64,000 bases of DNA, from assembly GCA_947494695.1 (NCBI GenBank), contig CANLWB010000005.1:62001-126000 (forward strand). The letters run 5' to 3'. Both the position numbers and the translations under genes were made by a program. Source of the DNA: an uncultured Flavobacteriaceae bacterium (GTDB lineage Bacteria; Bacteroidota; Bacteroidia; Flavobacteriales; Flavobacteriaceae). Below, piece by piece: positions 648 to 26,172 of the stretch (the stretch's first letter is position 1; each line of letters opens with the position of its first letter). The notes beneath the pieces are model-generated. The model was not told the origin of the DNA, did no database searches, and saw only the letters and a list, made by a program, of their open reading frames with translations.

Positions 648-671
648 ACTTTATACTAGCTTATTACTTGT

Positions 672-720
672 GAAAGATGACATTTAACGGCGTAGCCTTA
701 AATGTTGTCTTTCTTATTTT
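672..720 (+). terminator. Hairpin between nrfA and the cytochrome c maturation gene
   Basis: The arms at 672-687 and 698-713 pair over 16 bases with two imperfect positions, one of them G-U, around a 10-base loop, and a T-rich run follows. This looks like an intrinsic terminator or attenuator. Because the next gene starts at 733 on the same strand, it may lower rather than stop its expression relative to nrfA. Confidence 0.6.
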
Positions 721-732
721 TAAAAGAACATC

Positions 733-3700: not shown

Positions 3701-3873
3701 CTTTTTGGTCCATTATAATGACTTCTTTTGGCGTTAATTATTACTTATCGGGTTTACATAGCTATGCAGCAGGGGATCCTTTACCTGTCCCTACATTTGT
3801 CTATGTACTTGCGTTTTTTATGGTTGCGGTAGCTATTGTTTCTAATGTTCGAAACAAGAGTAACCAGTCTTAA
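733..3873 (+). CDS. Fused cytochrome c biogenesis protein CcsB-CcsA (ResB/CcsA, NrfI-like)
   Basis: This is a large inner-membrane heme exporter and synthetase of the System II cytochrome c maturation pathway. It attaches heme to CXXCH apocytochromes on the outer face of the membrane. At 1046 residues it has the length of a CcsBA fusion. The N-terminal half is ResB/CcsB-like, with membrane segments near residues 10-30, 50-65 and 75-95, a large periplasmic domain and another helix near 435. The C-terminal half is CcsA-like, with several helices after residue 740 and the tryptophan-rich heme-handling motif WGRYWAWDPKE near residues 945-955. HAPWSNGYE near residue 805 is also typical. Lying directly after nrfA, it resembles NrfI, the maturation factor dedicated to nitrite reductase in Wolinella. 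It would also serve the other c-type cytochromes of this island. Confidence 0.92.
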   Translation: MQNIYKFLSSSSLALLLLLVFAIAMATATFIENDFGTATAWVAIYDAWWFEAVLLGLTLTFVANIFKYKLLRKEKWAILLFHVAFIVIVLGAAITRYASYGGIMRIREGASSNIVISDTNFLSATISDGNRTKTIKQKLSFSPIGSNDFSLETNFNNKNVIISYNEFITDAVPEVLHDEENGEPLLEMVVTVGNGRHTVYLKKGEIEKIGEHQHEIGFNSNKKGIINIMEKEGAFSIRAPHELDFFIMSSQQAGKVVKDSLQAITLRTLYRHGDMSFVPLVYHEKGRFHLKSDPEKTKDNDKTKDDALIVNISVDGEEQPVNILYRQGFLPTHHDIDIKGTKLVLSYGAAAITTPFSLQLDDFQLERYPGSSSPSAYASEVMILDGEEKTPFRIFMNNVLDYKGYRFFQASYDTDEKGTVLSVNHDRFGTLVTYLGYVLMMTGMFFTLFGKTSRFQLINKKLKKLKKKPIATACLLLFIITQGHAQRSQDSLDAYIEKAIEHQEIDKNHTDFFGRLLVQDLDGRIKPINTLASEFLRKISRKSRFVYSLADKKVVLDANQTFLAMHMLPQVWQRVPIIKVDFKKTGLVFDNIPRGNNNLVAFTSLLDKKGEYLLTNHVEDANKKKPSERNEFDKEILKIDERFNILYNVFMGNYLKIFPNKNDSNNTWFSYTHHFNDFPEEDGQFAKTILQSYFNDIKSRNYQAAHEKLMYIKKYQDVLGAEVIPTPQRIEAELWYNKANINFWLFQVFFMLGFVLLVLAIVKMLSKKKWIDLLNNTFIVMTLVSFLCFTGNILLRWYVSQHAPWSNGYEMLIFVAWVLVLCGLITFRKSDFSLPLATLFSGALLFVSYLDWLSPEITNLMPVLKSYWLKIHVATIVSSYAPLALSAILGLMALLLLIFKTPKTKDIIEIKIKELTYINEIAMTIGLFVLAVGTFLGGIWANESWGRYWAWDPKETWALISIIVYAIVLHLRFIPKLNNTYVFNVASMFAFWSIIMTSFGVNYYLSGLHSYAAGDPLPVPTFVYVLAFFMVAVAIVSNVRNKSNQS

Positions 3874-4386: not shown

Positions 4387-4926
4387 ATGAACAACCTACT
4401 TAATGAACATATCCTAAGATATGTTCCCCAGAAAAAAATTGAATATGATTTCAATTTACAAGAACATTTTTCAATTGCCTACAAACTCTCGAAATCCCCG
4501 TCTTTATTGACTCCTAAGCTCATTACGACCTTTGGGGATATTTTTGTTATTGAGGATAAGGATATAGAAAATTTTGAAGCTGCAAGTTTTTATTATCGAG
4601 AATCCTCAATTTTTCAAACTTGTTCAAATACTAAAATTTTAGAGGCTAATTTAAAAATATCCAAAAAGCATTTGCCTAAAGGACTTATTAACGATTTAAG
4701 CCATACTACGATTCCTTTTGGGAAATTATTAACCGAATATAAGATAAACGCAGGAGTAAAAGATCTTAATATATGTATTCATAAAAGTGTGGTTAATTCC
4801 AGTACACGAATTGGAAGAAACTTAAAGATTTACGATAAACAAAGTAATATGGTTATTGCTTTTGTTAGAGAATTATTCGTTTCTGAAAAAGAACTATCAC
4901 TCGCGAAATTATATATTAACCCTTAA
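4387..4926 (+). CDS. Chorismate lyase-like protein (UbiC / Rv2949c fold), putative
   Basis: This 179-residue soluble protein has no signal peptide. Its second half follows the pattern I recall for chorismate pyruvate-lyases of the Rv2949c/DUF98 type. LPKGLINDLSHTTIPFGKLL (residues about 98-117) aligns with the segment around the PLG motif. IGRNLKIYDKQSNMVIAFVR followed by ELF aligns with the strand pair that ends in the conserved catalytic-region Glu. Such enzymes release pyruvate from chorismate to give 4-hydroxybenzoate, a precursor for quinones or aryl pigments. The next gene, ten bases downstream, is a flavin monooxygenase, so the two probably form an operon modifying an aromatic product. 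The similarity is weak in the N-terminal half, so activity is an inference. Confidence 0.5.
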   Translation: MNNLLNEHILRYVPQKKIEYDFNLQEHFSIAYKLSKSPSLLTPKLITTFGDIFVIEDKDIENFEAASFYYRESSIFQTCSNTKILEANLKISKKHLPKGLINDLSHTTIPFGKLLTEYKINAGVKDLNICIHKSVVNSSTRIGRNLKIYDKQSNMVIAFVRELFVSEKELSLAKLYINP

Positions 4927-4935
4927 AAAATAGAC

Positions 4936-6471
4936 ATGTTAGATTGTATTATAATTGGTTCTGGACCTGCTGGAATCGTGGCTCTAAAAGAATTACTTGA
5001 GCAAAATATTAAGAATGTAGTATGTTTAGAAAAAACCGATAAACTTGGAGGTACGTTTTCACAAACTTACGATAATTTGAAATTAACATCATCTACCACG
5101 TTTAGTATGTTTTCGGACTTTTGGATTGGTGATAATGCAAATAATCATTTTTGGTCGAAAGATGAAGCCGTAAACTACTGGAATAATTATTCAGAACATT
5201 TTGGTATTAAAAAGTATATCAATTACAACAGTGAGGTTACTAGTATAGTAGATCATAAAACATATTGGGAATTAGAAACATCATCCGGTGTAGTATTTTC
5301 AGCAAAAAAAATCATTTTAGCTTTAGGTAATAATCGGGTTCCTAAGTTTCCTGATTGGAAAAGTGCGCTAAGTAAAATAAAATATTCTCATTCTTCATCT
5401 TATAAAAATGCCGATAGGTTTAAAGGAAAAAGAGTTCTTGTTGTTGGAGGGGGAGAATCTGGTTCAGATTTGGCATACGAGATTTCTGCCGTAGCGCGTA
5501 CAAGTTGGATAAGCTTAAGGAATTCTACAGGGTGGGTGGTTCCCAGAAAAAGGGGAGATATCGCTTCAGATAACTCTACGCATAGAGGTATATGGAATTT
5601 ACCAAAATCGCATGGTCCTAAATTAAGTGAAAGAATAAATAGGAAAGAATTATCTCGAAAAGATCCCGTTTTTGATACCGTAGTTATGTTAAATAAACTG
5701 GCTCACACCAAATACGGTTTAAGAGGTGTTTATGGAACAAAAACACTGTCACTACCAAAAGCTATTGTAGAACATAATTGTGAACTTGTTAGGGAAATTA
5801 TTGAGATTGATGATTTGAATAGAACGGTTAAAACATCTGATGGTAAGACTTTGGAAAATATCGATGAAATCGTTTTCTGTACGGGGTATAAAAATGAGAT
5901 AAAGATATTGCCTCAACAATATCAAAACATTAATCCGAGAGAATTATACAAGCATATGATTCATCCAGATTTAGGAGACCGTATTTTGTGGTTGGGGTAT
6001 GCAAGGCCTGGCTTTGGAAGTCAATTCCCAATACTTGAAATGCAGTCCAGATTAATGGCTCTAGTCATTTCAAAAAAGCATATGCTTCCTTCTAAAATAG
6101 AGATGAAAAAGACTGCTCTTATGGATACCTATGAAAACATGGATCGCTTTCAGGAAAACGCATACAATGTAAAAAGTCTTGTTGATTATCACACTTATAT
6201 GGACGATTTGTCAAAGGTTATTGGGTGTGAGCCTCCCTTGAGAAAACTTTTTTTTACGAATCCTAAATTATGGGTTAAAGTGTTTTTTGGGCCAACGCAA
6301 GCCACTCAGTTTAGGCTAAAGGGGCCTGGAGAAAAAACAGAACTCGCGAAGCATATTATTTATAAACTACCTAAGGTAAAATTAAATAATATAATAAAAG
6401 AGGGTATTAAAGGCCGAATCCATTATGCTATGCCATGGAACAATTCCAAGTTTAAGAACGCTAGAGTCTAA
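4936..6471 (+). CDS. Flavin-containing monooxygenase-like NAD(P)H/FAD enzyme
   Basis: This 511-residue protein has two dinucleotide-binding sites. The FAD site is at the N-terminus (CIIIGSGPAG, residues 4-13) and the NAD(P)H site is RVLVVGGGESGSDLAYE near residues 164-180. This is the layout of class B flavoprotein monooxygenases (FMO and Baeyer-Villiger types). IVFCTGYKNE near residue 313 is the usual late ATG/CTGY motif that closes the FAD domain. These enzymes put one oxygen atom onto a soft nucleophile or carbonyl using NADPH and O2. The gene follows the chorismate-lyase-like gene by nine bases, so an aromatic metabolite is a reasonable but untested substrate. The C-terminal 100 residues match nothing I recognise. 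Confidence 0.8.
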   Translation: MLDCIIIGSGPAGIVALKELLEQNIKNVVCLEKTDKLGGTFSQTYDNLKLTSSTTFSMFSDFWIGDNANNHFWSKDEAVNYWNNYSEHFGIKKYINYNSEVTSIVDHKTYWELETSSGVVFSAKKIILALGNNRVPKFPDWKSALSKIKYSHSSSYKNADRFKGKRVLVVGGGESGSDLAYEISAVARTSWISLRNSTGWVVPRKRGDIASDNSTHRGIWNLPKSHGPKLSERINRKELSRKDPVFDTVVMLNKLAHTKYGLRGVYGTKTLSLPKAIVEHNCELVREIIEIDDLNRTVKTSDGKTLENIDEIVFCTGYKNEIKILPQQYQNINPRELYKHMIHPDLGDRILWLGYARPGFGSQFPILEMQSRLMALVISKKHMLPSKIEMKKTALMDTYENMDRFQENAYNVKSLVDYHTYMDDLSKVIGCEPPLRKLFFTNPKLWVKVFFGPTQATQFRLKGPGEKTELAKHIIYKLPKVKLNNIIKEGIKGRIHYAMPWNNSKFKNARV

Positions 6472-6927
6472 TTAGGTATCTAAAAACTAGAATCTTATAT
6501 CAATTATATTTAAAAATAAAATATAGAACGTAACATTGCTTTATATGTTAGCCTACATCTCTTTAGTTACATGGTTTTGGCTATGAAAATGACGTATGAA
6601 AGGTGAAAATAGGGGTGATGGATTTGAAAAACTTATTTTAAAATATAATTGGTATACTATGTTTTATTACGATTTAAAATGTATTTGTAGCAAGTTATGT
6701 TAAAGTGTGGAGTGAACATCTTGGTAAAAACAAACTTTTCAGATTTCTTCTAAATTCATTAGAAACTTGATTTACGAATATGCCATAAATTCATAACCAA
6801 AATTACCTAGTTATGAATTTGAGTCCTGTTTTTTCGTTTTCTCTCAAAAGTGCTTAATGATGATTTTTGTATACGTATTAATACTTATATTTGAACTGTT
6901 GCCCTTGTATAAAAGCCCTTTTAAAGT
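6472..6927. other. Intergenic region upstream of the Crp/Fnr regulator
   Basis: No gene is seen. An 11-bp perfect inverted repeat (arms 6787-6797 and 6810-6820, 12-base loop) is followed at about 6828 by a T-rich stretch and may be a terminator. The regulator's promoter and operator-like palindrome lie at 6867-6893. Confidence 0.5.
6873..6893 (+). promoter_or_regulatory. Operator-like palindrome joined to a -7 element, regulator gene
   Basis: The 14-mer ACGTATTAATACTT (6873-6886) differs at one position from the perfect palindrome AAGTATTAATACTT. Its last base begins TATATTTG (6886-6893), which fits the Bacteroidota -7 consensus TAnnTTTG. A TTG lies 16 bases upstream (6867-6869). The same 14-mer pattern occurs before the globin and nitrate transporter genes, so autoregulation by the adjacent Crp/Fnr protein is likely but inferred. 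Confidence 0.6.
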
Positions 6928-7683
6928 ATGCAAACGTTTAACAGAACAAGTGAGATACGGCATAAAACAAGATCATTGTTTGGTAAAGCCTGTAAGCAAT
7001 GCGACAACTTCAACTGCTTGATCAAAAAAAGTATATCCGATCTTGAACAATCAAATTTCATTGATAAGAAGAATGATATCAAATGCAAAAAAGGACAGCA
7101 ATTCATTATAGAAGGAGCGCCGGTAAATGGACTGTTCTTTATTTTAGAGGGAACTGTAAAAGTATTTAGAACTGGAATTAATGGTAGAGAGCAAATTGTA
7201 AGATTTGCTAAAGAAGGTGAAATTATCGGGCACCGTGGTTTCGGTACTGAAGAATATTATTCTATTGGAGCGATCGCTTTACAAGATACCGTACTCTGTT
7301 ATTTTTCCAAAGACGATTTGCAGGAGGCACTGGTTGAAAACCCAAAATTCACTTACGATATGATGTTGTTTTATGCTAATGAGCTAAACAGAAGCGAAAA
7401 CAAGGTGAAATCTATTTCTCAAATGACGGTTCGTGAGCGTGTTATTGATACCTTATTATATATTCATAGAAAATTTGGTCATTTAAGGGGCTACTTAAAT
7501 TTACCGCTTAGCAGACGAGAATATGCCGATTACGCCGGTACTACAGAAGAACAGGTGATTAGAGCTTTTTCTGCACTTAAAAAAGAAAACCTAATCATAG
7601 CCAAAGGTAAGAAGATTGGAATTGTAGATACAGCACTTCTCAAAAAAGAAATTAGCGAACATAACTTCTTCTTAGATAGCTAA
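6928..7683 (+). CDS. Crp/Fnr family regulator with FNR-like cysteines
   Basis: This 251-residue regulator has a cyclic-nucleotide-type beta-roll (about residues 48-150), a long dimerisation helix and a C-terminal winged helix. In LSRREYADYAGTTEEQVIRA the recognition helix reads EEQVIRA where E. coli FNR has VETISRL. The key Glu and Arg are kept but the Ser is Ile, so its DNA site should differ from TTGAT-N4-ATCAA. Cysteines C22, C25 and C30 at the N-terminus and C124 in LCYFSKDDL occupy almost the same places as the four FNR cysteines that bind the oxygen-sensing 4Fe-4S cluster (C20, C23, C29, C122). An oxygen or NO sensor controlling the surrounding nitrogen-oxide genes is the natural reading. 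ATG 6928 lies about 35 bases after its -7 element. Confidence 0.88.
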   Translation: MQTFNRTSEIRHKTRSLFGKACKQCDNFNCLIKKSISDLEQSNFIDKKNDIKCKKGQQFIIEGAPVNGLFFILEGTVKVFRTGINGREQIVRFAKEGEIIGHRGFGTEEYYSIGAIALQDTVLCYFSKDDLQEALVENPKFTYDMMLFYANELNRSENKVKSISQMTVRERVIDTLLYIHRKFGHLRGYLNLPLSRREYADYAGTTEEQVIRAFSALKKENLIIAKGKKIGIVDTALLKKEISEHNFFLDS

Positions 7684-8160
7684 TGTTATGGCCAATAGCA
7701 CCCGATATAAATACGAATGAGACGTTTTAGTCTGTCGAACTTTCGATAGACAGAGAAATTAGTGAGATTTCTTTATTCATGACTCACTCTTTAAACTATA
7801 ATATTATTTATCAATATTTGTAGATACACCTTAACCATCTAGCCAACAGGGAGTCTCATCTTTATGTGATGTCTTGTCACTTTTATTATGTTCCCAACTA
7901 GCCCGGCTGACAGGCATCGATATGAGAGATCACAATACGTAATAGAGAAACTCAAATTAGTTTACTGCCTTTACGAGGGTTACTCATTGAAAACATGCGA
8001 GTTAAAGATTAGACATGCGTTTTGTCAGCTTTTCATGTGTTGTAAAAGATCATTTTATACTGTATTATTTCATAATTAATTAGGAGTGTAGACTTTACTT
8101 TTGTCGTAAATAAGTATTAGTACTTAATTTTTAGAAAAACATAAAAAACAAAAAAGACTT
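7684..8160. other. Intergenic region between the regulator and globin genes
   Basis: A weak hairpin (about 7731-7754) may end the regulator transcript. A 63-codon open frame at 7888-8079 has unusual composition, is rich in Cys, Arg and Tyr, and has no family resemblance; I judge it non-coding. The globin gene's control region is at 8096-8132. Confidence 0.5.
8096..8132 (+). promoter_or_regulatory. Promoter region of the globin gene with operator-like palindrome
   Basis: AAGTATTAGTACTT (8112-8125) is one mismatch from AAGTATTAATACTT. TAATTTTT (8125-8132) sits exactly where TATATTTG sits relative to the palindrome before the regulator gene, with only the final G missing. A canonical -7 element, TACTTTTG, is also present at 8096-8103, which would put the palindrome just downstream of the start of transcription. 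Sequence alone cannot say which is used. Confidence 0.55.
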
Positions 8161-8574
8161 ATGGAATTAAAAACCATCACCTTAGTTCAGGAATCCTTCG
8201 AAAAAGTAAAGCCGATCTCTCAAGCTGCCTCCAAGATTTTTTACGAAAAATTGTTTGAGTTGGATCCAAAACTTAAACCATTATTTCCCAGTGATGAGGA
8301 ATCCATGAGTATTCAGGGCAATAAACTGATGAGTATGTTAGGTGCTGCCGTTGCAGGATTAAGCAATTTGGATGCATTAATTCCAATACTGAAAGATTTA
8401 GGAAAAAGACATGTAGATTATAAAGTCGAGGCTTTCCACTACCAAACGGTTGGAGAAGCTTTATTGGGAACGCTTGAAGTTGGTTTAGGAGATGATTTCA
8501 CGACAGAGGTTAAAGAGGCGTGGACCAGCGTTTACGGAACCATGTCTAATGTCATGATTGATGCCGCATATTAA
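8161..8574 (+). CDS. Single-domain globin (Vitreoscilla-hemoglobin-like)
   Basis: This 137-residue heme protein has the fold and length of bacterial single-domain haemoglobins. Visible landmarks are FYEKLF with the distal B10 Tyr (Y28), PLFPSDE in the C-D region, Q52 at about E7, the proximal F8 His in GKRHVDYKV (H84), and HYQTVGEALL (residues 93-102), the G-helix signature shared with flavohaemoglobin. It lacks the FAD/NAD reductase part of Hmp. A separate FAD/2Fe-2S reductase is encoded 1.6 kb downstream. Such globins bind O2 and NO and can act as NO dioxygenases when reduced. The neighbours (nitrite reductase, FNR-like regulator, nitrate transporter) and the operator-like site upstream point to a role in nitrosative or low-oxygen stress. 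Confidence 0.9.
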   Translation: MELKTITLVQESFEKVKPISQAASKIFYEKLFELDPKLKPLFPSDEESMSIQGNKLMSMLGAAVAGLSNLDALIPILKDLGKRHVDYKVEAFHYQTVGEALLGTLEVGLGDDFTTEVKEAWTSVYGTMSNVMIDAAY

Positions 8575-8597
8575 TAACTAACTAACCAACCAAAACT

Positions 8598-9407
8598 ATG
8601 AAAGCTATATATAAAATAACATTACTATTAACATTTTCCATTTTAACATCATGTGGAGGAGTACCAGAAGAAAAAACTAAAAGTATAGGTGCCGAGAATA
8701 CGTTTTCTGTAGAAGAAGTATTAGAAATGGTGGCCAGAGAAAACGATGTAACCCGAACATTGTATACCAAAGCTATTGTAGGAAAGGGAAAGAAACAAGG
8801 CATGAAATTCGATGAAGACTGGAGGAAAGATGATGTAGAGGCAGGCCCACTTCCCGCCTTATTTCTTAGAGGAGTTGCAACGAGTATAAGAAAGAGTTCG
8901 GTGCCTTTGGGATTATATTTAGGTTCGGACTTTCCTGTGAATGCTGCAAATAAGTTTGAAGGAAAACAAGCCGAGCTATTCGAACATATTAAAAAAGACC
9001 AAAAAGCGCAATTTTTCTATGACGAAGACCAGAAACTTCATACGGCTATGTTTGCAGATTTAGCCAGCGCCGGAGCTTGTGTGACTTGCCATAATGATCA
9101 CCCTCAAACGACAAAGTCCGATTGGAAATTAGGAGACGTTATGGGGGCAACAACCTGGCAATACCCTAAGGACTCATTGTCTTATAAAGAAACTGTGGCT
9201 GTATTGAATTCCTATGCTAAGGGTACTGTGGATATTTACATGGAGTATTTAGATGAAATTAATGCCTTTGAAAAAAGTGAAAAACCCCAAATAGGTGATA
9301 AGTGGCCAGCTGAAGGAAACTATTTACCAACCGCCGAAGTTTTCCTCGACAGTGTCAAAAAACTATCATCCTATGAAACGATGAAGCGTCTTGTAGTTGT
9401 AAAGTAA
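8598..9407 (+). CDS. DUF3365 (Tll0287-like) c-type heme lipoprotein
   Basis: This 269-residue exported protein has a lipoprotein signal peptide (lipobox LTSC, Cys at about residue 19). It should be anchored in a membrane facing the periplasm. The body matches what I recall of DUF3365/Tll0287-like sensor folds: LPALFLRG, a Tyr/Phe-rich middle, and a single heme-binding CVTCHNDHP near residues 161-169. These domains bind one c-type heme and appear as sensor modules or as free periplasmic proteins. Here it is free, follows the globin by 23 bases, and likely shares its transcript. Its role in electron transfer or gas binding is unknown. Confidence 0.82.
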   Translation: MKAIYKITLLLTFSILTSCGGVPEEKTKSIGAENTFSVEEVLEMVARENDVTRTLYTKAIVGKGKKQGMKFDEDWRKDDVEAGPLPALFLRGVATSIRKSSVPLGLYLGSDFPVNAANKFEGKQAELFEHIKKDQKAQFFYDEDQKLHTAMFADLASAGACVTCHNDHPQTTKSDWKLGDVMGATTWQYPKDSLSYKETVAVLNSYAKGTVDIYMEYLDEINAFEKSEKPQIGDKWPAEGNYLPTAEVFLDSVKKLSSYETMKRLVVVK

Positions 9408-9715
9408 AGTGATTTAGTTTTTTGATTTAATAATTAAGGCAATATGCAACCTTGCTCAATATACAGATCTAGACGCTCCAAATCCTGAGCAGGTTGCAAA
9501 TTGCATATGTTTAATTGAACTTATTTTGAGTTTTTGAGTTTGACACAAAATGAAGTAAAATTTATCCAGATAATACACTTTTTAAAGGGCACTCACCTCC
9601 CGGATGGGCAGGTAGCATTGCTAAGCATAAAAAGAGAAACAAAATATGGATGGATTTTGACATGTCTTAGGAAATAGAAAGCGTCAAGATGAGTTCATTA
9701 ATAAAATGTTAGTGT
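9408..9715. other. Intergenic region with long inverted repeat
   Basis: No gene is seen. The region carries the bulged hairpin at 9445-9498 and a short G+C-richer patch at about 9586-9616 that stands out from the A+T-rich surroundings and that I could not explain. Confidence 0.45.
9445..9498. repeat. Long inverted repeat after the DUF3365 gene
   Basis: TGCAACCTTGCTCA (9445-9458) pairs with TGAGCAGGTTGCA (9486-9498) over 13 base pairs with one bulged T, around a 27-base loop. No clear T-run follows, so it is not a textbook terminator; it could be a transcript-processing or regulatory hairpin. Confidence 0.55.
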
Positions 9716-10189
9716 ATGAATAACAAATCCACCATATTGGGATTGGTTTTAATGATCGCTTACTTTTTACAATACATTTTGAAATTGGAGTGGAGCTGGC
9801 TGTTTGAACTTCAGGCACAAGAAATGTATAAACGATGGACAGGCCTGGGGCTTGCACTATTTATAATATTTCAATGGGTTTTAACCATGACACGCACCAT
9901 TAAAAGGTTTAGAAAGTACGCTATGTCGATGTTATCAATCCATAAATGGCTAGGAGCTATAAGTCCGCTCATTTTTTATATACACACAGCGTCTCTGGGG
10001 TATGGGTATTTGCTACTACTTACTTATATATTCTTTTCAAATACGCTTCTGGGGTATTTAAATCTAAATGTATTGAAAAACAATAGTGATTTACTATTTA
10101 AGAGTTGGATGATTGCTCATGTAGCGCTATCTGTAATAGTTCCCATTATGATGGTGTTTCATATAACTATGGTGTTTTATTATAAATAG
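9716..10189 (+). CDS. Bis-heme b membrane protein (ferric reductase / NOX-like core)
   Basis: This 157-residue integral membrane protein has four predicted helices (about 8-26, 42-58, 74-117 as a hairpin, and 132-155). Two helices each carry two histidines exactly 14 positions apart: H76 and H90, and H135 and H149. HX13H in two helices is the arrangement by which NADPH oxidases and ferric reductases stack two b-type hemes across a membrane. The protein has only this core. The FAD/NAD domain normally fused to it is supplied by the next gene, which starts a few bases later. It would take electrons from that reductase on the cytoplasmic side and deliver them outside, probably to the pentaheme cytochrome encoded two genes downstream. 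I know no described name for this short version. Confidence 0.75.
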   Translation: MNNKSTILGLVLMIAYFLQYILKLEWSWLFELQAQEMYKRWTGLGLALFIIFQWVLTMTRTIKRFRKYAMSMLSIHKWLGAISPLIFYIHTASLGYGYLLLLTYIFFSNTLLGYLNLNVLKNNSDLLFKSWMIAHVALSVIVPIMMVFHITMVFYYK

Positions 10190-10196
10190 ATTGCGT

Positions 10197-11225
10197 ATGA
10201 AATTACAGGTGAAAGATATCATTAAAGAAACAAACGATGCGATAAGTGTAAGTTTTAAGAACGGCAATTTTTTTAAAAAGCTGAAATATAAACCAGGACA
10301 ATTCCTAACAATTCACGTTCCAATAGATAAAAAGATACATAAAAGAGCCTATTCCTTTAGCAGTAACCCCTATACAGATAAGGATTTGAAAATTACTATT
10401 AAACGTGTAGAAGGGGGGCTGGTATCTAATTTTGTTCATAATAGCCTTGAAGTGGGAGATAAGCTTGAAGTAAACCCTCCTGCAGGCTCTTTTTGTATCG
10501 AACCTAAAAGTGGAGCCGAGAAACAGTATGTGTTATTTGCTGGGGGTAGTGGTATTACGCCCATGTTTTCTATTGTAAAATCGGTTTTAACGGAAGAAGT
10601 GAATTCAAAAGTATTACTGATTTATGCTAACCAAAATAAAGAGTCTATCATTTTTCACGATGAATTGAAAATGTTAGAAGCGGCTTATCCAGAAGTGCTT
10701 TCTGTAACACATATTATTTCCTCAAATAAGACAGATGATGGCAACTATCATTCCGGTTTGGCGACTAACGAACTTGTGGATAAGATCTTTTATAAAAACG
10801 ACTTGAGTTACGATGATCATGTTTATATGATTTGTGGACCTTTTGGTTATATGGAAAAAATAAAAGAGATCTTAAAAAGTAATGGTGTTCCTAGGGAAAA
10901 GATTAAGATTGAAGTTTTTAAAGCCCCTGCAGTAAAAGTCACAGGAAAAGACCTTATGAGTGACGTCACTTTAAAAATAGATGGAGAAACGCTTAAACTA
11001 AAAGTACCTGGGAACAAATCTATTTTAGAACAGGCCATGTCTGAGAATATTGCCATTCCATATTCCTGTAGAGCCGGAATGTGTGCCAATTGCAAAGCGA
11101 CCTGCATTTCTGGGAATGTAAAGATGACCGAAGGTCATTTATTGACTGATGCCGAAATGGAAAGCGGAAGCATTCTTACATGTATTAGTTATCCAACAAG
11201 TGAACAACTTGTAATTGAAGTATAA
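10197..11225 (+). CDS. NAD(P)H-FAD-[2Fe-2S] reductase (PaaE/Hcr-like)
   Basis: This 342-residue electron-transfer flavoprotein has domains in the order FAD, NAD(P)H, ferredoxin. RAYSFSS near residue 47 is the FAD-binding RxYS motif. GGSGITPM near residue 116 and CGPFGYMEKI near residue 212 are the nucleotide-binding segments. PYSCRAGMCANCKA near residue 288 with the later LTCISYP gives the CX4CX2C...C ligands of a plant-type 2Fe-2S cluster. ATG 10197 is preferred over an in-frame TTG at 10191. The gene is almost fused to the bis-heme b gene, so the two proteins probably form one transmembrane NAD(P)H oxidoreductase. It could also re-reduce the globin. Close relatives reduce hybrid-cluster protein or aromatic oxygenases; neither partner is in the window. 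Confidence 0.87.
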   Translation: MKLQVKDIIKETNDAISVSFKNGNFFKKLKYKPGQFLTIHVPIDKKIHKRAYSFSSNPYTDKDLKITIKRVEGGLVSNFVHNSLEVGDKLEVNPPAGSFCIEPKSGAEKQYVLFAGGSGITPMFSIVKSVLTEEVNSKVLLIYANQNKESIIFHDELKMLEAAYPEVLSVTHIISSNKTDDGNYHSGLATNELVDKIFYKNDLSYDDHVYMICGPFGYMEKIKEILKSNGVPREKIKIEVFKAPAVKVTGKDLMSDVTLKIDGETLKLKVPGNKSILEQAMSENIAIPYSCRAGMCANCKATCISGNVKMTEGHLLTDAEMESGSILTCISYPTSEQLVIEV

Positions 11226-11248
11226 TATTAAATAAGTTTAGATCATAT

Positions 11249-11959
11249 ATGTTCAAGGTAGGGCCATTACGCAAAAGACAAGTTTTAGGAGGTATCATAG
11301 GTAGTATTCTTGGAGGCGCCATGTTTTACATATTTACTTTAGATACTACCGAGGAATATGTCTCAATTGGCCCCATGAATACGGGGCATGAAAGTCTGTC
11401 CTGTTTTGCATGTCATGCAGATGCTAAGGGAAACCTCATGCAGCAGGTACAATCTAATGTATCCCATGCCTTTGGAGCTAGAGACATAGGAGTAGATTTT
11501 GGAACACAAGATGTTACGGTAAATAATTGTCTGGAATGTCATGACCGACCAAACGACAGACATCCAACGCACCGTTTCTCGGAACCAAGATTTAAAGAAG
11601 CCGTATCCCATATTGATGCAACTACTTGTATTACCTGTCATACAGAGCATGAAGAAGAGCGTGTATCGGTGGCTTCAATAGATTATTGTATGAACTGTCA
11701 CCAGGATTTGGACGTTGAAAACGATCCGTTGGATATCTCTCATAAAACCTTAATAGCAAAAGAAGCATGGTTTACCTGTATTCAATGCCATGATTTTCAT
11801 GGAAACCATAAATATGAGGTTCCAGAGAAACTTTCAGATACCATTCCTATGGAGTCCATTCAACGTTATTTTGATGGCGGAGAAGATCCCTATGGATCGG
11901 TTAAAAAATATATCGCGCTTTCTCAAGAAGATTGGTTAAAAGCGCTAGAAAATAAATAG
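11249..11959 (+). CDS. Membrane-anchored pentaheme cytochrome c
   Basis: This 236-residue protein has an N-terminal membrane anchor (about residues 12-30) after a basic start. The periplasmic domain carries five CXXCH sites: CFACH (52), CLECH (94), CITCH (127), CMNCH (147) and CIQCH (177). Several further histidines (H73, H105, H121, H165, H184) could be distal ligands. It is shorter than NrfB and differs in spacing from the NapC/NrfH quinol dehydrogenases. It follows the reductase by 23 bases and ends before a strong terminator at 12061-12090. The likely role is to carry electrons from the bis-heme b protein, or from quinol, to periplasmic acceptors such as NrfA. The partner is inferred. Confidence 0.85.
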   Translation: MFKVGPLRKRQVLGGIIGSILGGAMFYIFTLDTTEEYVSIGPMNTGHESLSCFACHADAKGNLMQQVQSNVSHAFGARDIGVDFGTQDVTVNNCLECHDRPNDRHPTHRFSEPRFKEAVSHIDATTCITCHTEHEEERVSVASIDYCMNCHQDLDVENDPLDISHKTLIAKEAWFTCIQCHDFHGNHKYEVPEKLSDTIPMESIQRYFDGGEDPYGSVKKYIALSQEDWLKALENK

Positions 11960-12090: not shown

Positions 12091-12192
12091 TTTAAAATGC
12101 TTGTTTTTAGTGCATTGCATTGCTTTTATGGCTTTTTGCAGGTTTGTATCTGTGAAAAAAGATGGTTGGACATGGGGATTTACATAATGGAT

Positions 12193-12239
12193 GAGTATTG
12201 ATACTTATATATTTGCTTCAAAATTAAGTATAAATACTT
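12193..12239 (+). promoter_or_regulatory. Nitrate-type transporter promoter flanked by two operator-like palindromes
   Basis: GAGTATTGATACTT (12193-12206) has two mismatches and AAGTATAAATACTT (12226-12239) has one mismatch to the 14-bp palindrome AAGTATTAATACTT. They flank the -7 element TATATTTG (12208-12215), and their centres are 33 bases apart, close to three helical turns. I see no good -33 TTG at the expected distance, which would fit a promoter needing an activator. The ATG is 22 bases after the second site. Confidence 0.65.
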
Positions 12240-12261
12240 AGAATAATTTAAATCAAAACAT

Positions 12262-13662
12262 ATGAAATCTCTAATCAAAAAGTCAACATGGATTTTACCG
12301 CTAGCCGTATTGTTGTTCTCTTGTGGTAACAAGGAGAAGAAACAAACCGAAACGTTAGCCGAAAATACACCCGTAGAAACATCTAAAACAAAAACATTAG
12401 ATATTGAAAAACCACAGTTAACCTTTGGTTTTATAAAATTAACAGATATGGCACCTTTAGCCATTGCCAAAGAAAAAGGATTCTTTGAGGATGAAGGTTT
12501 ATTTGTTTCGGTAGAAGCACAATCAAACTGGAAAAATGTGTTAGACCGTGTTATAGATGGTCAGTTAGACGGCTCTCACATGTTAGCCGGGCAGCCAATT
12601 GCTGCAGGTGCCGGATTTGGAAGACAGGCAGAGTTGGTAACACCATTCTCGATGGATTTAAATGGTAATGGTATTACTGTTTCTAACGATGTTTGGTCTA
12701 AAATGAAACCAAATGTACCAAAAGGAGAAGATGGAAAGCCCGTTCACCCTATAAAAGCAGACGCTTTAAAACCTGTAATTGAAAGCTATAAAAATTCGGG
12801 AAAAGCTTTTAAAATGGGAATGGTTTTTCCAGTTTCAACACATAACTATGAAATTAGATATTGGTTGGCAGCCGCAGGAATTCACCCAGGTATGTATACC
12901 GCAGAAAATGTACAGGGACAAATTGATGCAGAAGTTTTATTATCTGTAACGCCACCACCTCAAATGCCAGCGACGCTAGAATCTGGAACTATTTACGGAT
13001 ACTGTGTAGGAGAACCATGGAATCAACAAGCCGTATTTAAGGGGATTGGAGTGCCTGTTACAACAAACTATGACATTTGGAAAAACAACCCGGAAAAGGT
13101 ATTTGTAATGACCAAAAAGTTTGTTGAAAAATATCCAAATACAGCCGTTGCTGTTACAAAAGCTTTAATAAGAGCAGGAAAGTGGTTAGATGAACCAGGG
13201 AACAGAGCAGAAGCTGTAAAAATATTATCGATGTCTCAGTACGTTGGAGCAGATGAAGCTGTATTAGCAAATTCTATGACTGGAACCTTCGAATTTGAAA
13301 AAGGAGACAAACGTGAGATGCCCGATTTTAATGTGTTTTACAAGTATAATGCAACGTATCCTTTCTACTCAGATGGTATTTGGTTTTTAACTCAAATGAG
13401 ACGTTGGGGGCAAATTCCAGAAGCAAAACCAGCAGATTGGTATTCAGAAACCATCAAAAATATCTACAGACCAGATATCTGGACCAAAGCAGCTAAGCTT
13501 TTAGTGGAAGAAGGCAATATCCCAGCAAGTGATATTCCTGAAACAGATGGATACAAGCCAGCTACAACCGATTTTATAGATGGCAATGCTTACGATGCTA
13601 AAGATCCAATTTCATACATCAATAGTTTTAAAATAGGAAACAAGGACGAAGCAGTACAGTAA
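12262..13662 (+). CDS. nrtA: Nitrate-type ABC transporter substrate-binding lipoprotein (NrtA/CmpA family)
   Basis: This 466-residue binding protein has a lipoprotein signal (LLFSCGN, Cys at about residue 21), so it is tethered at the outer face of the inner membrane. The body has the NrtA/CmpA/SsuA-like pattern: [17 protein letters not shown] (residues about 57-73), a binding-lobe stretch with [28 protein letters not shown], and [12 protein letters not shown] near residue 247. Family members bind nitrate, nitrite, bicarbonate or sulfonates. Co-location with nrfA and a porin supports nitrate or nitrite, but I cannot read the ligand from sequence. It heads an operon of transporter genes with its own promoter. 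Confidence 0.85.
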
Positions 13663-13697
13663 TTATAGGGAGTTAAGTAAGTAAATATATAAGAGTC

Positions 13698-14804
13698 ATG
13701 AAGCAAAGTATAACATTAGGAAAAGTAACCAAGTTTATGGGGTTAGGATTTTTAAGCACATTTAAAGATCTATTTACCGGAAAACTAGAAAAGGAAGATT
13801 TTAAAAATTTCCTTCGTAAAGTAGTCGTACCGATGGCTTCCATTCTATTATTTATCGGATTATGGTTCCTAGGAGCGCGATCGTTGTATAATGTAGAAGC
13901 AGAGTATAAAATTCAAAAAGCATTAACAGATCAAGGACCAGAAGCAGCAGAAGCTTTGCGTGCTTGTATAGCCTCAGGAGATACAAGTTGTCAACCAAAT
14001 ACCTTACCATCTCCAAGTCAGGTTTGGGATTCATATATGTCGCTACTGAAAGACCACCAAATTATTAGTGCAGACAAGGCAGCTTTTGCAGAGAAGACAG
14101 CTGCCTTAAATGAAAAGCGTATAGCAAATGGTGAAAATCCCATAACGTATACGGGAAGACCTTCATTCGTAGATCAGATTTTTAGAAGTTTACAAACCGT
14201 ATTTGCTGGGTTTTTACTAGCACTGTTAATAGCTGTACCTTTAGGAATCTTTATAGGCTTAAGTCCAACCTTGAAGAGTTCGTTTAACTGGTTCATTCAG
14301 ATTTTTAAACCTGTATCACCCGTGGTTTGGTATCTATTGGTTTTTATGATTGTAAAAACACTTTTAATAGATTCTAACGAAGATAGTTCTTTTACGATTT
14401 CATTTATAAGTGTTGGTTTATGTTCTATGTGGGCCACACTGGTTAATACGGCAATGGGAGTGTCTTCTGTAGATAAGGATTACATTAATGTAGCCAAAGT
14501 GTTGAAGTTAGGACCATTTCAAAAGGTATTCAAAGTCGTATTACCATCATCCTTACCTTTAATCTTCACAGGTTTAAAAATTACATTATCTGTAGCATGG
14601 ATGGTACTAATTGCCATTGAATTGTTAGCCCAAAGCCCAGGATTAGGTTTATTTGTTTGGGAAGAATTTCAAAATGGAGCAAATGATTCCAATGCGAAAA
14701 TTATTGTAGCTATGTTTGTCATCGGAGTTATAGGGTTCCTATTAGACCGATTGATGCTAACGATACAAAATGCAGTATCTTTTGATAAAACTGACGCTAT
14801 ATAA
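13698..14804 (+). CDS. nrtB: Nitrate-type ABC transporter permease (NrtB family)
   Basis: This 368-residue inner-membrane permease has one helix near residues 47-64, a loop of about 90 residues, then a core of about five helices (160-350). The cytoplasmic EAA-type loop that contacts the ATPase is INVAKVLKLGPFQKVFKVVL (residues about 264-283). It resembles NrtB/SsuC permeases, with an extra loop between the first two helices. It starts 35 bases after the binding-protein gene and is followed by two ATPase genes, so the complex probably has one permease dimer with two different ATPases, as in cyanobacterial NrtABCD. Confidence 0.87.
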   Translation: MKQSITLGKVTKFMGLGFLSTFKDLFTGKLEKEDFKNFLRKVVVPMASILLFIGLWFLGARSLYNVEAEYKIQKALTDQGPEAAEALRACIASGDTSCQPNTLPSPSQVWDSYMSLLKDHQIISADKAAFAEKTAALNEKRIANGENPITYTGRPSFVDQIFRSLQTVFAGFLLALLIAVPLGIFIGLSPTLKSSFNWFIQIFKPVSPVVWYLLVFMIVKTLLIDSNEDSSFTISFISVGLCSMWATLVNTAMGVSSVDKDYINVAKVLKLGPFQKVFKVVLPSSLPLIFTGLKITLSVAWMVLIAIELLAQSPGLGLFVWEEFQNGANDSNAKIIVAMFVIGVIGFLLDRLMLTIQNAVSFDKTDAI

Positions 14805-14880
14805 CAGGTTAAAGGGCTGAATTGTTTTCGGAATTAAATGAAGAAACAATTCAACGCATAAACGCATAAACAATAATAAA

Positions 14881-15729
14881 ATGGCATACTTAGAATTAAA
14901 TAACGTTTATAAAACTTACGGACAGGGTGATTATGCTACTGAGGTACTTTCAAACATTAATCTGTCTATAGAGGAAGGTGAGTTTGTGGCCATAGTTGGG
15001 TTTACCGGAAGTGGAAAAACGACCTTAGTGAACCTTATAAATGGATTACTTGAACCAACATCTGGAGATGTTTTATTTAAAGGAAAACCCGTTATGGGAA
15101 CCAGTCATGAGCGTGGTGTGATTTTCCAAAACTATTCCCTATTGCCATGGTTAACTGTAGAGCAGAACGTATTTATGGCGGTTAAAGAGGCCTTTCCTAA
15201 AAAAAGTAAATCTGAGTTAAATGATATCGTTGCAGAATATGTTGAAATGGTGAGTTTAACACCAGCCATTAACAAACGTCCAAAGGAACTTTCTGGAGGA
15301 ATGCGTCAGCGCGTATCAGTTGCCAGAGCGTTAGCTATGAAACCGGAAATGATTATTATGGACGAACCTCTGGGCGCTTTAGATGCTTTAACCAGAGGTA
15401 ATCTTCAGGATGAGATTTTAAACATATGGGGAAAAGATAAACGTACAGCATTGCTCATTACTAATGATGTGGATGAGGGGATTTATATGGCCGATAGAAT
15501 TATTCCTTTACGTCCAGGACCTAATGCAACCTTAGGGCCGGAATTTAAAATAGATATCGAGCGTCCTCGCGATAAAACCGAAATGAACGATAATTTAAAT
15601 TTTAAGGAAACCAGAAATGCCATTATTGAGTATTTAATGGACATAGGAAATGAAAGGAAATCTCAGGCAATGGAAGAATTTGTACTTCCCGATTTAACAC
15701 CTAAAGATTTTGTTAATCAATTTAAATAA
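14881..15729 (+). CDS. nrtC: ABC transporter ATPase (NrtC-like, without C-terminal binding domain)
   Basis: This 282-residue ATPase has Walker [10 protein letters not shown] (residues about 40-48), a Q-loop in [11 protein letters not shown], signature LSGGMRQR (about 138-145) and Walker B MIIMDEP (about 157-163). Its switch position reads TNDVDEG where most ABC ATPases, including the partner encoded next, have THDVDEA. The catalytic His is therefore Asn here, which suggests this subunit is the weaker half of a heterodimeric ATPase. Cyanobacterial NrtC carries an extra C-terminal nitrate-sensing domain; that domain is absent here. Confidence 0.85.
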
Positions 15730-15738
15730 GCAAGTCAC

Positions 15739-16569
15739 ATGAATACCGTATTAGAAAAAAATAGAGTAAATGGTTATGCAGATAATGGGGTGTTCCCTTC
15801 ATCTCAGGTCATGCTGGATTTAAAAAAGCTTAAAAAGGTATACCCAACGCCAAAAGGTGATTATGTTGTACTTGAAGATTTAAATCTACAAATAAAAAAA
15901 GAAGAGTTTGTCACGATTATAGGACATTCAGGTTGTGGAAAAACGACTATGCTTTCTATGATTGCCGGACTTAATGAAATCTCAGGAGGACATATTTCTG
16001 TCCTGGGGAAACATATAAAAGGTCCGGGGCCAGATCGAGGGGTTATATTTCAGGCGCCTAGTTTAATGCCTTGGATGACATCCCTTCAAAATGTATTATT
16101 GGGTGTGAATCAAGTATTCCCACATGCCAGCAAATCGCAAAGAAAGGATATTGCCAAGTACTATCTTCAAAAAGTTGGATTAGAAGATGCGTTTCATAAA
16201 AAAGCTTCCGACTTATCTCAAGGGATGCAGCAACGTGTTGGAATAGCCAGAGCTTTTGCCATAAAACCAAAAGTTTTATTACTAGATGAACCTTTTGGAA
16301 TGTTAGATTCTTTAACCAGAGGGGAGCTTCAGGATATTCTTATAGAAATTTGGAACAAGGAAAAAATTACAGCTGTTATGATTACTCATGATGTGGATGA
16401 AGCTATTTTTCTTGCAGATAGAGTGGTTATGATGACTAGTGGTCCAAGAGCCAAAATAGGAGACATTCTTGAAATCGATTTTGAAAGACCCAGAACCCGT
16501 AAAGCCATTTTAGAACACAACGATTATTATAAATACAGAAAGCATCTCATAGATTTTTTAGAGCATTAA
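15739..16569 (+). CDS. nrtD: ABC transporter ATPase (NrtD-like)
   Basis: This 276-residue ATPase has Walker A GHSGCGKTT (about residues 61-69), signature LSQGMQQR, Walker B VLLLDEP, and a complete switch THDVDEA. It follows the preceding ATPase gene by nine bases and ends the four-gene transporter operon. With its intact catalytic His it is probably the main ATP-hydrolysing half of the pair. An N-terminal extension of about 25 residues precedes the ATPase core. Confidence 0.87.
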   Translation: MNTVLEKNRVNGYADNGVFPSSQVMLDLKKLKKVYPTPKGDYVVLEDLNLQIKKEEFVTIIGHSGCGKTTMLSMIAGLNEISGGHISVLGKHIKGPGPDRGVIFQAPSLMPWMTSLQNVLLGVNQVFPHASKSQRKDIAKYYLQKVGLEDAFHKKASDLSQGMQQRVGIARAFAIKPKVLLLDEPFGMLDSLTRGELQDILIEIWNKEKITAVMITHDVDEAIFLADRVVMMTSGPRAKIGDILEIDFERPRTRKAILEHNDYYKYRKHLIDFLEH

Positions 16570-16728: not shown

Positions 16729-18015
16729 ATGAAAAAACAATATCTATTACTAATCACCCTGGCATTAACTATTCAACTCGTGCAAGCACAATTTACACTA
16801 GATGGTGAATTTCGCCCACGTACAGAATACCGAAATGGTTTTGGAACCTTGATTGCAGATGACGCCGATGCAGGTTTTGGTATTTCCACCAGAGTACGTT
16901 TAAATACTGGATACAAAACAGAGGCTTATAAGGTATTTGTAAGCTTACAAGATATCATGGTTTGGGGTGAAAACAGACAAATTTTACCTTTTGATCAAAA
17001 TAACTCTTTTGCAGTTTTCCAAGCCTGGGCAGAGATTAATTTAGGTGAAGGGTTTTCAACTAAATTAGGACGTCAGGTGCTTTCATACGACGACCAAAGA
17101 ATTCTAGGAGGTTTAGATTGGGCACAACAAGGGCGTAATCATGATGCGGCATTACTTAAGTATAAAAAAGATAAATTTTTATTAGACTTTGCCGTAGCTT
17201 TCAATCAGGACTATTCCAATCCAACAGGTTTTGTTTCAACAGGAACTGGTTATAATACGTCAGGTTTCTTTTCATATAAGACCATGCAAATGTTATACGT
17301 AAAGCAGGCCTGGGAAAACTTTACAGGAAGTTTATTATTAATGAATAATGGTTTTCAAGATTTCGTCGATAATGACCCGAATAATGCCCCAGATGGTGTA
17401 AGTAACCTTCAAACATTGGGAACGCACTTGAAGTATAAGAATGGTAAGTTTGGAGCAGCAGCCAATGCATTCATCCAAACGGGATCAAGACAAGGTGAAG
17501 TTGATGTAAAGGGAGCATACCTTTTTGGTTTAGATTTGTCTTATAAAGCATCAGATAAAGTTGGTTTTGGAGCCGGTGTCGAAATTATTAGCGGAAATGA
17601 TGCCGATCCAGGAGAAACAGGAGCCTTCTTCCCATTATATGGAACAAACCATAAGTTTAATGGGTTTATGGATTACTTCTATGTAGGGAATCATGGGAAT
17701 TCTGTTGGTTTGTTCGATATCCATGCAAGCGCCAACTTTAAGCTAGGAGATTCTTCAAGTCTTATGATTAAAGCTTTAAACTTTAGTGGAGAGCAAGACT
17801 TACCAAGTGGAGAGAATGCTTTAGGAACTGAAATAGATTTAGTATTCAAAAAGAAGTTTAAAGGGTACACGTTAGTTGCAGGATATTCACATTTATTTCC
17901 TTCAGACGGGATGTATGAGTTAAAGAATATTACAGAAGATGCTGCTGCCAGTACTCAAAACTGGGCTTGGGCTATGCTCGTGATTAAACCAAAGTTTTTA
18001 AACACAGGTAATTAA
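16729..18015 (+). CDS. Outer-membrane porin, alginate-export-like family
   Basis: This 428-residue protein has a clear signal peptide ending near residue 20 (VQAQ). The mature part is a beta-barrel pattern of alternating short strands, beginning FTLDGEFRPRTEYRNGF, with the LGRQVLSYDDQRILGG segment typical of the alginate-export/AlgE-like porin family in Bacteroidota. It ends in VIKPKFLNTGN. Despite the family name, such porins sit beside nitrate and nitrite genes in many Bacteroidota and probably admit small anions through the outer membrane. It lies 160 bases after the ABC transporter operon with its own promoter and is closed by a strong terminator. Confidence 0.82.
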   Translation: MKKQYLLLITLALTIQLVQAQFTLDGEFRPRTEYRNGFGTLIADDADAGFGISTRVRLNTGYKTEAYKVFVSLQDIMVWGENRQILPFDQNNSFAVFQAWAEINLGEGFSTKLGRQVLSYDDQRILGGLDWAQQGRNHDAALLKYKKDKFLLDFAVAFNQDYSNPTGFVSTGTGYNTSGFFSYKTMQMLYVKQAWENFTGSLLLMNNGFQDFVDNDPNNAPDGVSNLQTLGTHLKYKNGKFGAAANAFIQTGSRQGEVDVKGAYLFGLDLSYKASDKVGFGAGVEIISGNDADPGETGAFFPLYGTNHKFNGFMDYFYVGNHGNSVGLFDIHASANFKLGDSSSLMIKALNFSGEQDLPSGENALGTEIDLVFKKKFKGYTLVAGYSHLFPSDGMYELKNITEDAAASTQNWAWAMLVIKPKFLNTGN

Positions 18016-20043: not shown

Positions 20044-20050
20044 AATGTGC

Positions 20051-21414: not shown

Positions 21415-21438
21415 TTTTTAAGGGGATTGTATTATTAT

Positions 21439-26133: not shown

Positions 26134-26172
26134 TATCAAAAAAATTAAAAACCCCTATTAAATTAAAAAAAA

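Follow-up and report, generated by a model that had tools for sequence, protein, structure and literature searches.

In E. coli, MsrQ together with Fre was described as a split NADPH oxidase (NOX) (accessible part of PMC5676040). In Bradyrhizobium japonicum, Bjgb and Flp, both encoded in the narK-bjgb-flp-nasC operon, protect the cell from nitric oxide (NO) formed in nitrate assimilation (accessible part of PMC4724949). Additionally, stand-alone members of the Tll0287 heme-protein family were proposed to be redox proteins with 'redox-related roles' (PMC12889525). Here, these systems are compared with a five-gene unit at positions 8161-11959 (plus strand) of a 64,000-nt stretch from an uncultured Flavobacteriaceae bacterium (contig CANLWB010000005.1, positions 62,001-126,000; hereafter the window, whose positions are used as coordinates unless another locus is named). 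The unit encodes, in this order, a globin, a Tll0287-type heme lipoprotein, a b-heme membrane protein of 157 aa (bH), a reductase and a pentaheme c-type cytochrome (C5). Judging from gene content, ligand conservation, predicted topology, conservation of the block, a common palindrome and the position of the genes as a cassette, it is plausible, with a probability of roughly 0.45, that the five genes form one transcription unit for NAD(P)H-driven electron export, which serves the globin and periplasmic hemes and limits NO toxicity.

A Conserved Five-Gene Unit

The original prediction read three of these genes, those of bH, the reductase and C5, as a split NOX-like electron chain, and the three are indeed found head to tail at 9716-11959. 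When one genome per species was scanned for C5, 56 named loci emerged, some of them cut by contig ends, and bH, reductase and C5 are adjacent in every one (56/56), with median intergenic gaps of 8 bp (bH-reductase) and 10 bp (reductase-C5). By their record titles, nearly all these loci belong to Flavobacteriaceae (Hyunsoonleella, Flavivirga, Algibacter, Tamlana, Maribacter, Zobellia, Aquimarina and others), and one comes from a Cytophagales metagenome-assembled genome (MAG). The Tll0287 lipoprotein is present in 56/56 loci by tblastn (55 by clustering of predicted open reading frames, ORFs) and the globin at its canonical place in 50/56. Additionally, a plasmid-collection search retrieved the same five genes from replicon p1 of Flammeovirga kamogawensis, where the annotated order is hemA, globin, DUF3365 protein, hypothetical protein (bH), ferredoxin-NADP reductase and cytochrome c3 family protein. 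Identity to the window proteins is 61% for the globin, 53% for the lipoprotein, 42-43% for bH and 47% for C5, and the heme-ligand residues of the unit proteins are kept. Thus, the predicted trio is a real and conserved block, together in Flammeovirga as in all 56 loci, but it falls short of the whole: conservation up to Flammeovirga identifies all five genes as the unit, to which the globin (8161) and the lipoprotein (8598) belong.

A reverse query with bH against 149 relatives gave 16 strongly matching genomes, all with the five genes side by side, whereas weak matches without these neighbours came from three further genomes and from a second site in one. The same 16 relatives were strongly matched by C5, along with two weak matches, and by the Tll0287 query. 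When 295 genomes drawn across the class were searched, bH matched only in the window's own (home) genome. The genes of the unit are:

8161-8574, plus strand: single-domain globin, 137 aa, best NCBIfam match the flavohemoprotein Hmp
8598-9407, plus strand: Tll0287-like (PF11845, sCache_heme) lipoprotein, 269 aa
9716-10189, plus strand: bH, b-heme membrane protein, 157 aa, five predicted transmembrane (TM) helices
10197-11225, plus strand: FAD/NAD(P)H/[2Fe-2S] reductase, 342 aa counted from ATG 10197
11249-11959, plus strand: C5, membrane-anchored pentaheme c-type cytochrome, 236 aa

The gap between the lipoprotein and bH genes (9408-9715) measures 308 bp in the window, against a median of 59 bp in the other loci; apart from one short weak match, its extra sequence matched nothing in the fetched sequence.

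Heme and Cofactor Sites of the Unit Proteins

bH contains exactly four His (H76, H90, H135 and H149), spaced by 14, 45 and 14 residues and invariant in all 57 sequences, the window's included; random placement of four His would give two pairs at exactly 14 with a probability of about 3e-4. The two HX13H pairs predicted for this 157-residue membrane protein are thereby confirmed. In an AlphaFold2 model of moderate quality (predicted local distance difference test, pLDDT, 77.8), bH folds into five long helices, with H76/H90 on TM3 (model helix 63-90) and H135/H149 on TM5 (model helix 125-155). The TM2-TM3 loop, whose limits were set by hand, is the most positive, with five K/R. By the positive-inside rule, TM3 and TM5 would thus start on the cytoplasmic side, which would place H76 and H135 at the inner side of the membrane and H90 and H149 at the outer side. 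This is the His arrangement that would be expected of a two-heme transmembrane relay. Of the prediction that bH binds two hemes, the topology is therefore plausible and the four ligands are invariant, whereas heme insertion itself is presumed from them.

The reductase comprises FAD_binding_6, NAD_binding_1 and Fer2 domains, all above their Pfam cut-offs, and its [2Fe-2S] ligands C293, C298, C301 and C331 are invariant (57/57), which bears out the separate FAD/NAD(P)H/2Fe-2S reductase of the prediction. Its likely start is ATG 10197, in register with the homologues; the ORF list starts it at TTG 10191. Its best NCBIfam matches, none of which reaches its cut-off, are to PaaE, Hcr-type NADH oxidoreductase and further oxygenase reductases; Hmp ranks in the first five.

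C5 is, as predicted, a membrane-anchored cytochrome with five CXXCH motifs (at 52, 94, 127, 147 and 177), and these are invariant in 57/57 sequences, as are six further His (H47, H105, H134, H165, H184 and H187). The invariant His would suffice for bis-His ligation of every heme, and on that ground C5 looks like a wire and not like an enzyme. Its N-terminal stretch (6-30) is predicted to form one hydrophobic helix; the C5 model is poor (pLDDT 47.7) and was used for this first helix alone.

The lipoprotein carries a lipobox-like Cys19 and a CXXCH motif at 161-165, which is invariant in 56/56 sequences. It scores 32.7 bits against PF11845 (cut-off 24.1), and 28/28 members match this family at E <= 0.1. 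The only Cys of the window protein are those of the lipobox and CXXCH, so that the distal-ligand Cys is missing, as it is from the Flammeovirga protein. No signalling domain was found in it, i.e., it is a stand-alone member. PDB sequence searches with the lipoprotein and with C5 returned nothing meaningful. The lipoprotein may serve as an electron sink, handle NO as an enzyme or act as a sensor. In the globin, H84 and H93 are invariant (51/51).

Palindrome, Regulator and Cassette Position

The surroundings of the unit point to nitrate assimilation. The relevant features, of which the palindromes have no strand, are:

6872-6887: palindrome TACGTATTAATACTTA, one mismatch, 40 bp before the CRP/Fnr gene
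6928-7683, plus strand: CRP/Fnr-family regulator, 251 aa, CX2CX4C
8111-8126: palindrome TAAGTATTAGTACTTA, perfect, 34 bp before the globin; presumed operator of the unit
12192-12207: palindrome TGAGTATTGATACTTA, one mismatch, 54 bp before NrtA
12225-12240: palindrome TAAGTATAAATACTTA, perfect, 21 bp before NrtA
12262-16569, plus strand: nitrate-type ABC transporter, here called NrtA-B-C-D (12262-13662, 13698-14804, 14881-15729, 15739-16569), of the same presumed regulon
16729-18015, plus strand: alginate-export-type outer-membrane protein (PF13372, porin), adjoining NrtD; homologue in 40/56 loci

The palindrome, TAAGTA-N4-TACTTA, was spotted by eye in the window before it was counted in the other loci and over the remaining contig. 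At no more than one mismatch, the four copies listed are the only ones in the window. In the other loci, where the 300 bp upstream of each gene were considered, such copies precede the globin in 40/49 cases (36 perfect; shuffled mean 0.55), NrtA in 45/49 (29 perfect; shuffled mean 0.3) and the CRP/Fnr gene in 28/46 (14 perfect; shuffled mean 0.4). Within the unit they precede the Tll0287 gene in 3/54 cases, bH in 0/55, the reductase in 0/56 and C5 in 0/56; outside it, the counts are 0/4 for NrfH, 0/8 for NrfA and 4/40 for the porin. For NarK, NirB and NasA-type genes they amount to 4/11, 3/12 and 4/13, rising at two mismatches to 11/11, 11/12 and 10/13 (three of the 13 NasA-type genes having none); the NasA-type counts cover genes with a fetched upstream stretch, the cluster's NapA-type genes without one being left out. 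The 457-kb home contig has three perfect copies, located before NarK-NasA-NirA, the globin and NrtA, and seven one-mismatch copies, located before the CRP/Fnr gene, NrtA and a response regulator (170 bp), with four in or overlapping other genes.

The CRP/Fnr gene is present in 46/56 loci and NrtA, within the fetched flanks, in 49/56. The regulator, which scores below the cut-off of the Fnr model, has C22, C25 and C30 in 47/47 sequences, with C53 (46/47) and C124 (41/47) as candidates for the fourth Cys. No classical Fnr box (TTGAT-N4-ATCAA) was found upstream of the seven gene families tested, and TTGA-N6-TCAA occurs once there, before one NrtA. It is probable that the CRP/Fnr protein regulates the nitrate-assimilation genes, and it might do so through the palindrome.

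Among the 149 relatives, NrtA is found in all 16 unit-bearing genomes and in eight without the unit, five of which were compared. In these five, the CRP/Fnr gene adjoins NrtA (5/5). A palindrome lies shortly before NrtA in four (three perfect, one with one mismatch), three of which also have a perfect copy before NarK; the fifth has a copy only elsewhere. In the usual arrangement of unit-bearing loci, the five genes sit between the CRP/Fnr gene and NrtA. The adjacency of these two genes where the unit is missing marks it as an optional cassette in a nitrate-assimilation island with a common presumed operator; it is thus probably an accessory cassette of the nitrate-assimilation regulon of Flavobacteriaceae.

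Nitrate Genes of the Unit-Bearing Genomes

The wider set of genomes comprises 50 of the 56 named unit-bearing ones, six short or MAG loci being left out. A cytoplasmic NasA-type reductase of about 1173-1206 aa is encoded in 49 of these 50. The home protein consists of molybdopterin domains followed by Pyr_redox_2, Rubredoxin_C and Fer2_BFD, and its name rests on these domains and on its neighbours. Nitrate assimilation is supported by the NarK-type neighbour (310.7 of 311.7 bits), the neighbour with a nitrite-reductase half-domain and rubredoxin, and the last of the four transporter genes (15739-16569), the only one above a nitrate-specific cut-off (ntrCD, 319.6 vs 291.8 bits). Among the others, the third (274.4 vs 291.8 bits) and the permease (140.5 vs 209.05 bits) score too low.

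At L078, 6801-11755 (G000:C5), the protein after this NasA-type one joins a nitrite/sulfite-reductase half domain to a C-terminal rubredoxin, and the two make an unusual-looking pair.

Directly before the unit, the home genome encodes a dissimilatory Nap-NrfHA-cytochrome c assembly (CcsBA) cluster (window 1-3873; L077, 12024-19139; contig positions G000:C5:54024-65873). It comprises NapA, a NapB-like and another tetraheme protein, a 4Fe-4S protein, an NrfD/DsrP-type protein, NrfH, NrfA and a cytochrome c assembly protein. NapA has a Tat-like signal and scores over the NF010055 cut-off and just below that of TIGR01706. The NrfD-type protein (L077, 17112-18335) is over the NCBIfam DsrP cut-off (422.6 vs 350 bits), and a second NrfHA-assembly set lies on contig C12 of the same genome (L080).

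Proposed Electron Path

In the proposed mechanism, the cytoplasmic reductase would oxidise NAD(P)H via FAD and [2Fe-2S] and pass the electrons to the inner (H76/H135) and then the outer (H90/H149) b heme of bH, from where they would reach the five periplasm-facing c hemes of C5 and, as the most likely acceptor, the heme lipoprotein. The reductase would probably also re-reduce the globin on the cytoplasmic side. The purpose would most likely be to protect the cytoplasmic as well as the periplasmic side of the membrane from NO and related species arising in side reactions of nitrate and nitrite assimilation. The NasA-type protein has FAD/NADH-type domains of its own and should therefore not need the reductase of the unit, whose neighbouring heme proteins are the globin inside and the lipoprotein outside. 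A more specific version, a two-sided NO defence of nitrate-assimilating Bacteroidota, is speculative and on balance doubtful: one reductase would recharge the globin inside, and bH, as one of a new family of minimal five-helix diheme b proteins, would together with the pentaheme wire keep the lipoprotein reduced so as to remove NO or nitrite-derived species at the envelope.

Several observations weigh against an export chain for NO defence in nitrate assimilation. The globin is absent from its canonical place in 6/56 loci, two of them cut by the contig end. The Flammeovirga unit has no annotated nitrate gene within 14 kb, and its fetched stretch contains no palindrome at <= 1 mismatch, so that the link to nitrate is not universal. 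Likewise, with 8/24 NrtA-bearing relatives lacking the unit, it is dispensable. Shuffled home contigs contained 4, 7 and 11 sites at <= 1 mismatch, against 10 in the real one; single-mismatch sites alone therefore mean little, and the weight lies on the three perfect sites and on the positions. The NasA name is soft, as the protein passes no cut-off (formate dehydrogenase alpha 602/666 bits, NasC 560/1100, NirB N-terminal part 300/578), formate dehydrogenase alpha scoring slightly higher and no nitrate-reductase cut-off being passed. NO binding was weak in the one stand-alone Tll0287 protein that was tested (PMC12889525).

Kinship of bH with NOX is uncertain as well. The window bH scores 17.3 bits against Pfam Ferric_reduct (PF01794; cut-off 28), over residues 103-156 (TM4-TM5) only, and for the Flammeovirga bH Pfam gave no match at 0.001. 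An hhalign comparison with six Ferric_reduct-type proteins (E. coli MsrQ and five others), both profiles being shallow, gave no match, Foldseek with the bH model no fold at E <= 0.001, and a PDB sequence search no match. Moreover, five TM helices are predicted in bH, versus six in the membrane domain of NOX and ferric reductases, and bH and the FAD/NAD reductase are separate genes in 56/56 loci, versus one chain in NOX. Thus, the split two-protein chain stands and may work like a split NOX or MsrQ-Fre, but membership of bH in the NOX/ferric-reductase family is not established.

One relative (G307; locus L083, 1267-2627) encodes a 209-aa Ferric_reduct protein, over the Pfam cut-off, beside a 242-aa FAD/siderophore-interacting-type reductase; split pairs of this kind thus do occur among these relatives.

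Alternative Explanations

The suggestion, made in the original prediction, that the chain feeds periplasmic NrfA, or else NapA, is encouraged by the position of the unit after NapA-NrfHA-CcsBA in the home genome and by the 149 relatives, where full NrfA and full NapA are each found in 15 of the 16 unit-bearing genomes. One genus accounts for 10 of these 16, which is why Fisher tests on this sample were not used. In the wider set, with full length judged by score, NrfA is full-length in 24/50 genomes and NapA in 19/50, either being present in 25/50 and neither in 25/50, and a rule drawn from the 149 relatives, that the unit occurs only in genomes with NrtA that also have Nap or Nrf, was dropped on these grounds. 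Moreover, relative G297, of the same genus, keeps Nap, Nrf, CcsBA and the porin and lacks both NrtA and the unit. The palindrome of the unit is shared by nitrate-uptake and NasA genes and is missing from the home Nap/Nrf cluster, as no copy at <= 2 mismatches was found in the 20-kb home stretch before the window, in line with the zero counts for NrfH and NrfA given above. Additionally, the home cluster has its own NrfH and NrfD/DsrP-type protein. NrfA as the acceptor is therefore not borne out, and supply of either enzyme by this chain is very improbable. A rather unlikely alternative is that bH is a diheme cytochrome b which oxidises menaquinol and feeds C5, the reductase serving only the globin as a split flavohemoglobin. 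CbcL- or NrfH/NapC-type enzymes feed cytochromes by menaquinol oxidation, and HX13H pairs on alternate helices are also the pattern of the quinol-handling cytochrome b of the bc1 complex; a quinol-linked reading of bH therefore keeps some weight, and the predicted route without quinones remains conjectural. The reductase, furthermore, resembles Hmp reductase domains, the ferric-reductase family membership of bH is unproven, and MsrQ itself was called a quinone-binding subunit (accessible part of PMC8238504). What speaks against it is the reductase gene, which stands between bH and C5 in all 56 loci at the short gaps given above, and the Pfam profile of bH: at E <= 1, the 36 bH members together matched 12 families, bc1-type cytochrome b not among them, whereas Ferric_reduct is weakly matched by 34/36 (best 8.5e-5).

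It is improbable that the lipoprotein is a periplasmic redox or NO sensor whose redox state the chain merely sets or reads. A signalling member of the Tll0287/sCache_heme family does bind NO tightly and, like the window lipoprotein, has no distal Cys (PMC12889525), and regulator and globin genes are neighbours; however, the window protein has no recognisable signalling domain, stand-alone members being the ones proposed as redox proteins, and five c hemes plus NAD(P)H would be an odd cost for sensing. Equally improbable is an enzyme akin to NOX or ferric reductases whose electrons would go to extracellular O2 or Fe(III). The weak Ferric_reduct similarity of bH and the overall anatomy would fit such an enzyme, as would the superoxide that the Tll0287-family proteins tested make with O2 (PMC12889525), yet no iron-uptake gene was recognised by eye among the 45 most recurrent neighbour clusters listed, and the presumed regulon is that of nitrate assimilation.

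Other Features of the Window

An FMO-like monooxygenase and a 179-aa protein without a Pfam match are encoded at 4387-6471, flanked by the cytochrome assembly gene on one side and the CRP/Fnr gene on the other; neither was found in the 56 loci. By the porin, at 19402-21942 (minus strand), lie a response regulator, a histidine-kinase-like protein and two unknown proteins, found together in 5/56 loci. At 24469-29232, the N-terminal stretches of two large neighbouring proteins are nearly identical, suggestive of a tandem duplication.

Implications and Comparison with Described Systems

If the proposed export chain is right, some marine bacteria that seemingly feed on nitrate may push electrons across the membrane to heme proteins outside, probably as a defence against toxic NO, and this cytoplasm-to-periplasm electron route would be tied to nitrogen assimilation and not to respiration. 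The unit also contains a reductase that could serve a bacterial single-domain globin, a class for which native electron donors had hardly been identified according to the accessible part of a 2012 review (PMC3820574). Likewise, it places a stand-alone Tll0287-type heme protein in a genetic context and suggests where its electrons may come from. Direct tests of the idea are made possible by the cassette, its presumed operator and the occurrence of natural genomes both with and without the unit.

The statement in the original prediction that no described system has this arrangement is too strong, given MsrQ-Fre (PMC5676040) and the globin-flavoprotein pair of a nitrate-assimilation operon (PMC4724949), each taken from the accessible part of its source. 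With MsrQ-Fre the window shares a heme-b membrane protein, a separate flavin reductase and electrons directed toward a periplasmic partner; MsrQ, however, is larger (211 aa) and feeds the molybdenum enzyme MsrP (accessible part of PMC5676040), whereas here a five-helix bH of 157 aa is joined to a pentaheme cytochrome, and bH has no detectable profile similarity to an alignment containing MsrQ. In MsrQ-like flavinylated conduits, a PF01794-type membrane protein is likewise accompanied by an NAD-binding domain or partner, and electron export was proposed for them, but they pair with FMN-bound proteins made by ApbE (accessible part of PMC8238504), whereas the partner here is a multiheme cytochrome. 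C5 is akin to NrfB and MtrA/DmsE-type multiheme cytochromes in a weak DmsE-type model similarity, in its five hemes and in its probable bis-His ligation; it differs from them in its N-terminal membrane anchor and in NCBIfam scores that, for the window C5, are all far below cut-offs. One of 36 C5 members matches the NrfB model TIGR03146 (E 0.0011), and the window C5 does not at 0.1. The lipoprotein shares with the stand-alone Tll0287/sCache_heme proteins (PMC12889525) a PF11845 match over the cut-off and the invariant CXXCH, but it is without a distal Cys, is a lipoprotein and is a fixed partner of a b-heme/reductase/pentaheme chain. The combination of bH, pentaheme cytochrome and Tll0287 lipoprotein was not found in the open-access literature among the matches listed, mostly titles and beginnings of abstracts. 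Thus, split NOX-like chains and globin-flavoprotein pairs in nitrate assimilation have already been described, and the extension by a diheme bH, C5 and the lipoprotein appears to be the new part.

The B. japonicum operon has in common with the home genome an Hmp-type single-domain globin, an NAD(P)H flavoprotein, an ABC nitrate transporter, NarK and an assimilatory nitrate reductase, and Flp was proposed to donate electrons also to NasC (accessible part of PMC4724949); here, in contrast, the NasA-type protein has its own FAD/NADH-type domains. The same part of that report mentions no b-heme membrane protein, pentaheme cytochrome or Tll0287 lipoprotein. By gene content, the unit pairs a single-domain Hmp-type globin and a flavoprotein with nitrate-assimilation genes, NasA being named by domains and neighbours, and is in that respect of the Bjgb-Flp type. 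We therefore read it, by analogy, as the Bjgb-Flp idea with a putative export arm added, running from the reductase through bH and C5 to the lipoprotein.

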